Below, in pieces: positions 2,676-5,157 of a stretch of 64,000 nucleotides of DNA (within the stretch, counting starts at the first letter, position 1; every line of letters begins with the position of its first letter). The stretch covers positions 1 through 64,000 of the forward strand of contig NZ_CP145608.1 of assembly GCF_036884295.1 (NCBI RefSeq). Direction: 5' to 3'. A program made the position numbers and the translations under genes. This stretch comes from Brochothrix thermosphacta DSM 20171 = FSL F6-1036 (GTDB lineage: Bacteria; Bacillota; Bacilli; Lactobacillales; Listeriaceae). Below the pieces are notes generated by a model. That model ran no database searches. It had not been told where the DNA came from and saw nothing but the letters and a program-made list of their open reading frames with translations.

Positions 2676-2709
2676 AAAAAAAGTTATCCACATGTGGGTA
2701 ACTTTTTTT
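2676..2709 (+). terminator. dnaN terminator built from an inverted DnaA-box pair
   Basis: The two arms 2676-2692 and 2693-2709 form an almost perfect 34-bp palindrome with a single T-G wobble. Seven A's open it and seven T's close it, so it can work as an intrinsic terminator in both directions. Its centre contains an exact DnaA box TTATCCACA (2684-2692, plus strand) and a one-mismatch box TTACCCACA on the minus strand (2693-2701). Confidence 0.9.
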
Positions 2710-2864
2710 GTGTTCTAAAAGCGTTATACGCGATTTAAAGTAAAAGTAAGGACCTAAGCTCTAATGTGATTAAAATAAGAATTTAGAAGTCTCTGAGCGC
2801 TGTATGGCCTCATTTTTACAGCAGTGTTAAGAATTTACTATTTACTTTGCTATCTCTAAATGAG

Positions 2865-3326
2865 TTAACAAACTGTCTCTAATAAAGAACTTGCAGTTTC
2901 AGTAATAAAAAAGCGTTTTAGATGACTATAAAAAACATATAAATTAAAGGATAAAACAAGCATAACGAACACGTTAATCCACTTATAAAAAACATTATTC
3001 TTTGTATTACGACTAAAGACCATAGGCAATGTTAATAAACCAAATGGTGCGATTGGGATAGATATTATCATGATAATGGCTAATAACCAACTTTCATCAG
3101 CGTTTTTAGAAATTGTTACTTTATTTTCTGTTTGTTCTTCTTTTGTTAAATCAGCAATGGATAGTTCATAAAAAGCACTTAATTTTTTTAAAGTTTCAAT
3201 GTTCGGAGTACCTGTGCCATTTTCCCATTTCGAAAGAGACTGTCGTGAAAAATTGAGTGCATCAGCAACTTCTTGTTGCGTTATTTTTTTTCGTTTACGC
3301 GCTTTTTTCAGTCGATTAGCCAGCAT
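2865..3326 (-). CDS. XRE-family helix-turn-helix regulator with C-terminal membrane hairpin
   Basis: This 153-residue protein has an HTH_3/XRE DNA-binding domain at residues 4-60, including QQEVADALNFSRQSLSKWE. A charged linker follows, then two hydrophobic segments at roughly 80-100 and 113-130 that look like membrane spans, and a short tail. That architecture suggests a regulator tethered to the membrane. The ATG at 3326 follows AAGGAG on the minus strand. It lies downstream of, and on the same strand as, the unknown gene at 3438-3995. Target and signal are unknown. Two similar proteins occur in the window (4293-4736 and 33260-33694). Confidence 0.8.
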   Translation of the reverse strand: MLANRLKKARKRKKITQQEVADALNFSRQSLSKWENGTGTPNIETLKKLSAFYELSIADLTKEEQTENKVTISKNADESWLLAIIMIISIPIAPFGLLTLPMVFSRNTKNNVFYKWINVFVMLVLSFNLYVFYSHLKRFFITETASSLLETVC

Positions 3327-3344
3327 AATATCGCTCCTTAAAAT

Positions 3345-3390
3345 AAAAAATGAAGTTATCTTTATTATAACAAAGACAACTTCATTTTTT
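3345..3390 (-). terminator. 13-bp inverted repeat: probable terminator with a promoter-like -10 in its loop
   Basis: The arms 3345-3357 and 3378-3390 are exact 13-bp inverted repeats (AAAAAATGAAGTT and its complement). Read on the minus strand this is an A-tract, stem and T-tract, suited to end transcription of the gene at 3438-3995. The 20-bp loop contains TATAAT on the minus strand (3364-3369), a possible -10 for the XRE gene just downstream. No convincing -35 was seen. Confidence 0.6.
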
Positions 3391-3437
3391 ACTAGTTAAT
3401 TTGACTAAAAAAATGTTATTTCCCCCAAATTTAAAAA

Positions 3438-3995
3438 TCACTTTATTTTTAGGTAAATAAGAAATACGCGTTCATATTTTTTTACTTCAGAATCAATATT
3501 GTTTTCATCAAAAGTGAATGTATTGTGTATTTTATTGGAAAATGCAATTGTTCCTAATAAGTTTTCACCTTTTTTTAATGTTTCTTTCCCTGCAAAAATA
3601 CTGCTTTTATTTTTATAGACTTGGTTAGCTAAGGTGATATCGCTTAAAGAGATGTATTCTTTAGCGCTAATACCATATCTAAAATATTCTTTGTTCCCTT
3701 CAGAAAGAGTCCCTATAAAGAGACTGTCTGTTACACCTGAAAAGGTATGAGTATCTGCTTCTTGTTTAACACCATTTTGATAGCTAATAGTATAAACTTC
3801 AAGATCTAATGGTTTACTTAATTTATAAGTGGTAAGATCATCGAATAAAAATTCAAACGAGCTGTCTTTAACTGTTTTGATGGTAATTTCATTAGCATCT
3901 TTCTTAGCTTCGTCTTTATTGACAGTCTGAAAAATAATAGTTGCTACCCCGATAACGATTATTACAGAGCATAGTATAATTAATAAACGACGCAT
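3438..3995 (-). CDS. Hypothetical membrane-anchored protein
   Basis: I do not recognise this 185-residue protein. Residues 4-24 are a hydrophobic signal-anchor (RRLLIILCSVIIVIGVATII) without a clear cleavage site or lipobox, so the remaining 160 residues are probably outside the cell. The outer part is polar and rich in beta-prone stretches, with no cysteine and no motif I can name. The ribosome binding site (GATGGGA) is weak. It sits between two XRE regulators in an insertion that interrupts the normal dnaN-yaaA order, so it is probably accessory. It could be part of a sensory or immunity unit with the adjacent regulators, but nothing in the sequence proves this. Confidence 0.65.
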   Translation of the reverse strand: MRRLLIILCSVIIVIGVATIIFQTVNKDEAKKDANEITIKTVKDSSFEFLFDDLTTYKLSKPLDLEVYTISYQNGVKQEADTHTFSGVTDSLFIGTLSEGNKEYFRYGISAKEYISLSDITLANQVYKNKSSIFAGKETLKKGENLLGTIAFSNKIHNTFTFDENNIDSEVKKYERVFLIYLKIK

Positions 3996-4292
3996 TTAGT
4001 ATCAATCCCATCTTTGTTTATTTTATAATTTAAATATACATGTATTAAATAAAAAGTAACGCACCAAATAGTAGCAATACTACTTTACATAATGGCATTG
4101 GTGTTGCACTGCAGAGATAAAAGGTAATAACCTTTTAAAAGTTATAAAATAAAATTAGTATTTTTAATAGATATTTCCTCGGAAATACAAATTTTTCGCT
4201 TTAAAAGGCGTAAGCAAACCGGTAGCAAACAATTCTTTCTTGCTATGTAGTTTGAAATAGCAGACGATATTAACAGATAAAGGAGTGTGCCT
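3996..4292. other. AT-rich spacer between divergent accessory genes
   Basis: No credible gene is present in these 297 bases. A short hairpin (arms AAAAGGT 4119-4125 and ACCTTTT 4130-4136) lacks a T-run, so it is not a clear terminator. The segment separates the reverse-strand unknown gene from the forward XRE gene and should hold both promoters, but I could not assign them. The ribosome binding site AAAGGAG for the next gene is at 4279-4285. Confidence 0.5.
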
Positions 4293-4736
4293 ATGAATAA
4301 CTTTGGTGAGAAGTTAAAAATGTTACGGGAACAAACTGACATTACACAAGAGAAAGTCTCTCAAAAATTAAACGTCACAAGACAATCTGTTTCCAATTGG
4401 GAAAACAATAAAAATTATCCAGACCTAACGACCTTAGTAACTCTTAGTCAGCTCTATAATATTTCTTTAGATGATTTACTTAAAGATGAAAATAACGTGG
4501 TTAAATCCATGAAAACTGAATTGAATTCATATCGTTCTTCAGAATTAATAAAGCTGATTATTTTTTCGGTACTAGCATTTTTATTACCCATTATCGGTAT
4601 TGTATTTGGCATTCTTTTGCTTTGTACTAAGAAAAGAGTTGAATATTATAGAATAGCTAAAATAATCGGTACAATTAGTTTGATATGGCAAGCTGTTCCA
4701 ATTGTTCTTGCTGTAATAAATTACAGTACCTTCTAA
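4293..4736 (+). CDS. XRE-family helix-turn-helix regulator with C-terminal membrane hairpin
   Basis: This 147-residue protein has an XRE HTH (residues 4-62, with VTRQSVSNWENNKNYPDL) and a C-terminal pair of hydrophobic spans (about 86-108 and 120-143). A GTG six bases upstream is in frame, but the ATG at 4293 stands seven bases after AAAGGAG and is preferred. The pattern SWE-x-K-x-YPDL-x-TLS-x-Y-x-SLDxL is shared with the protein at 33260-33694, so the two are close paralogues. It is transcribed alone and ends before the hairpin terminator at 4841. Its ligand and targets are unknown. Confidence 0.8.
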   Translation: MNNFGEKLKMLREQTDITQEKVSQKLNVTRQSVSNWENNKNYPDLTTLVTLSQLYNISLDDLLKDENNVVKSMKTELNSYRSSELIKLIIFSVLAFLLPIIGIVFGILLLCTKKRVEYYRIAKIIGTISLIWQAVPIVLAVINYSTF

Positions 4737-4840
4737 ATTGAACGTAAAAAGTACTGAAATGTGAAATTAAGTTAATTTGCCCCTTATTTTCCTTGTAACA
4801 AATTTTTAAACTATCGTGTATATCTCTATATACAGTCATA

Positions 4841-4866
4841 AAAACAGCATATTGCTGTTTTTTTTG
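4841..4866 (+). terminator. Intrinsic terminator after the XRE gene
   Basis: Perfect 9-bp stem AAAACAGCA (4841-4849) and TGCTGTTTT (4853-4861) with a three-base loop, running into further T's. Just upstream a 7-bp inverted repeat TGTATAT-CTCT-ATATACA (4817-4834) could be a small operator or second hairpin. Confidence 0.85.
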
Positions 4867-4874
4867 ACGTTTAT

Positions 4875-4903
4875 TTGTAATCGCCTATGAAATCTAGTAA
4901 AAT
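4875..4903 (+). promoter_or_regulatory. SigA promoter for yaaA-recF-gyrB-gyrA
   Basis: TTGTAA (4875-4880), a 17-bp spacer and TAAAAT (4898-4903), placed 35 bases before the yaaA start codon and after a terminator. No other terminator follows until gyrA ends, so it may drive the whole group. Confidence 0.65.
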
Positions 4904-4938
4904 AGAAGTATGAATTACTAAACTCGAGGTGAGATAAA

Positions 4939-5157
4939 TTGGAAAAAGTAAATATCAATACAGAATATATTACACTAGGCCAAATGCTGAAAATTACTGA
5001 CATCATTTCTTCAGGTGGTATGGCCAAATGGTTTTTAAGCGAGCATGAAATCAATGTGAATGGCGAACCTGACAACCGTCGTGGTCGTAAGCTTTATCCT
5101 AATGATAAAATAGAGGTTATTGGCTTCGGAGAATACCAAATTTTTCAAGCTGACTGA
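4939..5157 (+). CDS. yaaA: S4-domain RNA-binding protein YaaA
   Basis: This 72-residue protein consists of one S4 RNA-binding fold and is the conserved gene between dnaN and recF in Bacilli. In B. subtilis it has been linked to ribosome assembly. The S4 motif is seen in [20 protein letters not shown], followed by the [13 protein letters not shown] segment. The start is a TTG at 4939 after GAGGTGAG; there is no alternative ATG near it. It lies 11 bases before recF and is clearly cotranscribed with it. Confidence 0.92.

Follow-up and report, generated by a model that had tools for sequence, protein, structure and literature searches.

The hairpin that follows dnaN in Brochothrix thermosphacta appears to serve both as an intrinsic terminator and, through its stem, as a DnaA site close to the origin, a reading of the sequence to which we give a probability of about 0.6. 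The double DnaA site in this hairpin is probably a real dual-use element, because in related bacteria the dyad of two boxes is found again near the origin and at various gene ends, that of dnaN among them. The window, meaning the whole 64,000-nt stretch that was analyzed, begins at dnaA, and the genome is a single contig of 2,564,037 bp. The features at the start of the window are as follows.

1-1344, + strand: dnaA (447 aa), open reading frame at the contig start
1360-1459, no strand assigned: oriC part between dnaA and dnaN, with DnaA boxes at 1360 and 1443 and a one-mismatch box at 1451
1513-2658, + strand: dnaN (381 aa), open reading frame terminated by the dyad hairpin
1878-1886, + strand: exact DnaA box within dnaN, read from sequence; the dnaN of B. 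campestris also contains an exact box
2674-2711, + strand: intrinsic terminator hairpin of dnaN, bidirectional; a 38-bp inverted repeat with one G.T position, supported by RNA folding
2676-2682, + strand: A7 tract, the outer 5' stem arm and the U tract of the reverse transcript
2684-2692, + strand: DnaA box 1, an exact TTATCCACA
2693-2701, - strand: DnaA box 2, TGTGGGTAA on the + strand and TTACCCACA on the - strand, one mismatch from the consensus and abutting box 1
2703-2709, + strand: T7 tract, the outer 3' arm and the U tract of the dnaN transcript
2865-3326, - strand: XRE-family regulator gene (open reading frame; Pfam HTH_3), convergent to dnaN

Positions 2676 to 2709 read A7-GTTATCCACA/TGTGGGTAAC-T7, with the slash at the junction of the two boxes, and combine a strong hairpin terminator with a head-to-head, zero-spacing DnaA box pair. 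Single bases, G at 2683 and C at 2702, separate the pair from A7 and T7, and the inverted repeat extends to 2674-2711. The dnaN stop codon occupies 2656-2658, and the A tract begins 17 nt downstream of it. The + strand RNA folded into 17 pairs with a 4-nt loop at -20.6 kcal/mol (z -6.9), and 0 of 200 shuffles were equally stable. A stable hairpin followed by a U run is thus present 3' of the gene, as judged from sequence and fold. The original prediction described a 34-bp near-perfect palindrome of an exact and a one-mismatch DnaA box, head to head and flanked by seven A's and seven T's, and coordinates, sequence, and fold all agreed with that description. The reverse transcript folded at -18.1, with a C.A mismatch at the position of the + strand U.G pair. 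Because of this weaker fold and the convergent gene, the terminator is best described as bidirectional and better for dnaN; a reverse transcript of the XRE gene would be predicted to run into it.

DnaA boxes with at most one mismatch occurred in the window at the frequency found in shuffles (96 versus 104 expected), so a lone one-mismatch box is uninformative. Exact TTATCCACA was in mild excess genome-wide (61 versus 39 for the reversed word, about 1.6-fold) and its density was higher around the origin (27 in 464 kb versus 7 in 400 kb far off). The 18-bp head-to-head dyad with at most one mismatch was present at 4 sites in the 2.56-Mb genome (2684, 134374, 2522345, and 2561521), none of them farther than 135 kb from the origin, and the reversed control gave 0. 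Likewise, 39 permuted 9-mers arranged as dyads gave 0 in the 464 kb around the origin. Three of the 4 dyads are terminators, and the fourth is in the mnmE-mnmG promoter. Among 206 terminator-like hairpins scanned near the origin, including one dyad locus counted on both strands, 3 loci carried the dyad compared to about 0.02 expected, which is a rough composition estimate with terminator criteria that are likewise rough. None of 215 such hairpins in 400 kb far from the origin carried it; the terminator counts together cover 864 kb of the genome. A chance origin of the dyad was rejected, since the count was zero for permuted words, for reversed patterns, and in DNA far from the origin. The dnaN dyad therefore has two close boxes beyond chance, box 2 being one mismatch off, as expected of a DnaA-box cluster, and it is origin-proximal yet outside oriC proper, 2.7 kb from the dnaA start.

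The promoter copy links the dyad to DnaA by analogy. DnaA of B. subtilis binds 5' of trmE (mnmE), which is among the strongest regions in vitro (region 5), and apparently represses the trmE-noc operon directly (PMC4447404). The same 18-bp dyad frame was seen at the mnmE promoters of Brochothrix and the rest of the family, although there it occupies a promoter spacer rather than a terminator stem. It lies in the 17-bp spacer of TTGTTA–TAAAAT, a promoter read from the consensus, and overlaps the first hexamer. Across 24 aligned Listeriaceae rows, 27 of the 29 columns of the block TTGTTAT[CT]CACATGTG[GA]ATAAGTTAAAAT were invariant (29 bases, TTGTTATYCACATGTGRATAAGTTAAAAT in the Brochothrix/Listeriaceae alignment), and no other column was invariant in the 120 nt around it. 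The two variable positions always changed reciprocally, and therefore every mnmE promoter has one TTATCCACA half and one TTATTCACA half; a perfect palindrome was found in none of the 24 rows. A dyad with at most one mismatch was present in 34 of 36 family genomes. Because the mnmE block is conserved and the trmE promoter is a DnaA target in B. subtilis, the 18-bp dyad is very likely a DnaA site. As a separate observation, the TTATCCACA and TTATTCACA halves swap sides between species (genome positions 2561490-2561540 in B. thermosphacta).

The dyad was detected in 54 of 200 Bacilli genomes, with 0 for the reversed control. A restriction to Listeriaceae was considered and proved wrong, as the dyad is widespread in Bacilli. 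Of 30 Bacilli loci examined, 13 were at mnmE, and most were not terminators. When the dyad was required to be flanked by A5, public genomes yielded 52 loci, nearly all from Bacilli, of which 30 were long hairpins with a U tract, compared to about 9 such arms with the left flank shuffled; this terminator fraction is not unbiased because the A-tract requirement selects hairpins. Terminators of the same dyad design follow dnaN in Virgibacillus halodenitrificans and Oceanobacillus indicireducens, and DnaA dyads at the dnaN 3' end were found in Virgibacillus, Oceanobacillus, a genus of that group, and one genome of family f12. Other A5-flanked dyads lie at the end of, or beside, genes in the jag-mnmE-mnmG-rsmG-noc region, named from our own reading of the proteins, with mnmE assigned by tblastn. 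In genus g152 (same family as genome G434), a dyad follows the dnaN stop at a distance of 1 nt in 6 of 6 sampled genomes. The 200 nt after dnaN in 109 Bacilli contained 14 DnaA boxes, distributed over 11 genomes, compared to about 1 expected, a count that includes related, non-independent genomes sharing some boxes. One genome, G338, has a dyad of two TTATNCACA boxes within this distance. It is an unlikely extension of these findings that Bacilli repeatedly make terminators from DnaA dyads, with dnaN favored, and that the terminator senses DnaA and couples dnaA-dnaN transcription to initiation.

Two further arrangements were observed in these genomes. The dyad of g152 is followed by a separate terminator and then by a box-like TGTGCATAA or a variant of it in 6 of 6 genomes. 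Paenibacillus and Neobacillus have a common dyad terminator after a gene resembling that of a spermidine/putrescine-binding protein.

Among near relatives the locus itself was not conserved. The family comparison used one genome per species, and B. campestris is the single same-genus neighbor; its dnaN is 92% identical, compared to about 65% across the remaining family. The dnaN terminator of B. campestris, at the same place, is a hairpin of AAAAAAGCACCGAGC...GCTCGATGCTTTTTTTT without boxes, and those of Listeria are other hairpins, such as ATCCGTCTTGGTTTCAAGGCGGAT, also without boxes. A search for the dyad at the dnaN of both B. campestris and Listeria did not find it, and the local conservation expected of a DnaA cluster was thus absent. 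The box is therefore not an ancestral, conserved feature of this terminator. The original prediction held that a DnaA role would be undermined if relatives kept the hairpin without the TTATCCACA core, and locally this is what B. campestris and Listeria do. Its structural claim of inverted DnaA boxes stood, conservation at the locus did not, and the dyad as a class was supported genome-wide and comparatively. At the 134-kb locus, B. campestris retains all 18 bases without a terminator, which indicates that this box is conserved beyond pairing. At the -42 kb locus, B. campestris has an ordinary terminator flanked by boxes on both sides. Upstream of ade, B. campestris has a dyad terminator, whereas B. 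thermosphacta has an ordinary terminator and then a box. The overall pattern is one of turnover of dyad terminators from locus to locus.

The absence of the dyad from the dnaN locus of B. campestris and Listeria, and the minority of Bacilli dyads that are terminators, count against dual use. One alternative is a plain terminator, in which the stem matches DnaA boxes by accident and DnaA has no role. The unrelated stems of B. campestris and Listeria at this position are consistent with it, as is the chance frequency of single near-boxes. Box 2 deviates from the consensus yet spares RNA pairing, and since the U.G pair is kept, pairing rather than binding may be what is maintained. An accidental match, however, accounts poorly for 3 dyad terminators near the origin and none in the distal 400 kb, for the same 18-mer frame in a promoter that is conserved and belongs to a known DnaA target, and for the recurrence of dyads at dnaN in other lineages. 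We therefore regard a plain terminator as somewhat unlikely.

The dyad could instead be a DnaA-controlled terminator, with bound DnaA as a roadblock that raises termination and so lets DnaA activity feed back on transcription out of dnaA-dnaN. Dyads do recur near dnaN 3' ends, and roadblock termination by DnaA is described in E. coli in work cited in PMC11317965. However, the hairpin by itself looks strong, so a roadblock is not needed, and little seems to need protection from read-through because the next listed + strand gene after dnaN starts at 4287. The roadblock work is also from E. coli, where ChIP-seq showed no binding at the guaB site that had been reported (PMC11317965). Such control is quite unlikely.

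A third part of oriC, in which the dyad after dnaN is used for initiation rather than titration, is very unlikely. The dyad is 1.2 kb away from the box cluster between dnaA and dnaN, the second part of oriC being a box cluster 5' of dnaA (-426 to -91), and the enrichment of DnaA boxes after dnaN in Bacilli would fit such a part. Against this, B. campestris lacks the dyad after dnaN but has the remaining parts of oriC, and identical dyads occur up to 134 kb away. Least credible, to the point of being almost discounted, is a dispersed repeat, that is, a mobile or duplicated element bearing the terminator: the same GGG variant does occur in the B. campestris terminator 5' of ade, but the outer arms of the three dyad terminators in B. 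thermosphacta differ (AAAAAAAG, GAAAGAG, and AGAAGCAAC) and their flanks are unrelated, and they therefore do not derive from a single repeat. Mobile-repeat copies were rejected, as no homology extended beyond the 18-20-bp core between copies in this genome. Plasmid records searched with the dnaN terminator and its surroundings (400 bp) gave no match.

The reading that we prefer, one sequence with two uses, would work as follows. As RNA, the element would be the intrinsic terminator of dnaA-dnaN transcription and, less strongly, of the convergent gene, as sequence and folding suggest. As duplex, the stem would be an 18-bp DnaA dyad, predicted to be bound at least at its exact half. It would add an origin-proximal DnaA sink to the DnaA sites formed by the bipartite oriC, the mnmE promoter, and the loci at -42 kb and +134 kb. 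Two inverted boxes form a hairpin by themselves, to which just flanking arms and a U tract would be added, so few changes may be required to turn DnaA sites into terminator stems or stems into DnaA sites. Such easy conversion would explain why dyad terminators come and go at individual loci although dyads as a class are retained. The best reading of the dyad set is that it resembles DnaA-box clusters with fast turnover. By comparison with B. subtilis, in which removal of six DnaA-box clusters leads to early initiation (PMC5295017), it is plausible that the dyad titrates DnaA close to the origin.

DnaA-box clusters and intrinsic terminators are each well known. Like the clusters of B. subtilis, which are intergenic boxes outside oriC that include those 5' of trmE (mnmE) and 3' of gcp/ydiF, the dnaN site is intergenic; unlike them, it is an isolated two-box dyad inside a terminator stem, known from sequence. 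In uptake signals, inverted pairs of the recognition sequence act as terminator stems. The dnaN dyad differs in that it is presumably recognized by the replication initiator, has few copies, and is origin-proximal. A linkage of DNA uptake signal sequences with terminators is noted in PMC1852404. Double DnaA boxes of E. coli are head-to-tail with 2-3 bp spacing, and they resemble the dnaN dyad in being two close boxes, one of them possibly weak (PMC11317965). However, the dnaN dyad is head-to-head with 0 bp spacing, which we counted against the preferred reading, as two DnaA molecules may not fit on boxes that abut in this way. This zero-spacing head-to-head arrangement, strongly conserved at the mnmE promoter, is a geometry unlike that of the E. 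coli double box. Our literature search, which covered few subscription papers, found no terminators built of DnaA boxes and no precedent at the dnaN 3' end. If DnaA binds, dyad terminators would be DnaA sinks hidden in gene 3' ends, would show how such sinks arise from an inverted pair that is a hairpin already, and would offer a defined 38-bp element at which modulation of termination by DnaA could be tested.

Some minor features of the region and genome were also recorded. Between the dnaN terminator and yaaA (4939-5154), positions 2720-4938 (about 2.2 kb) contain two regulators of XRE type and an open reading frame whose product resembles a membrane protein or lipoprotein, and the same interval in B. 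campestris is only about 200 bp. Outside oriC, three groups of 5-7 DnaA boxes each (188893-189311, 2423623-2423977, and 2522169-2522420) look like the DnaA-box clusters of B. subtilis. Finally, a 20-pair inverted repeat with TTATAATAAAG at 3346-3389, between the 3' end of the gene at 3438-3995 and the XRE gene, resembles a terminator overlapping a promoter.
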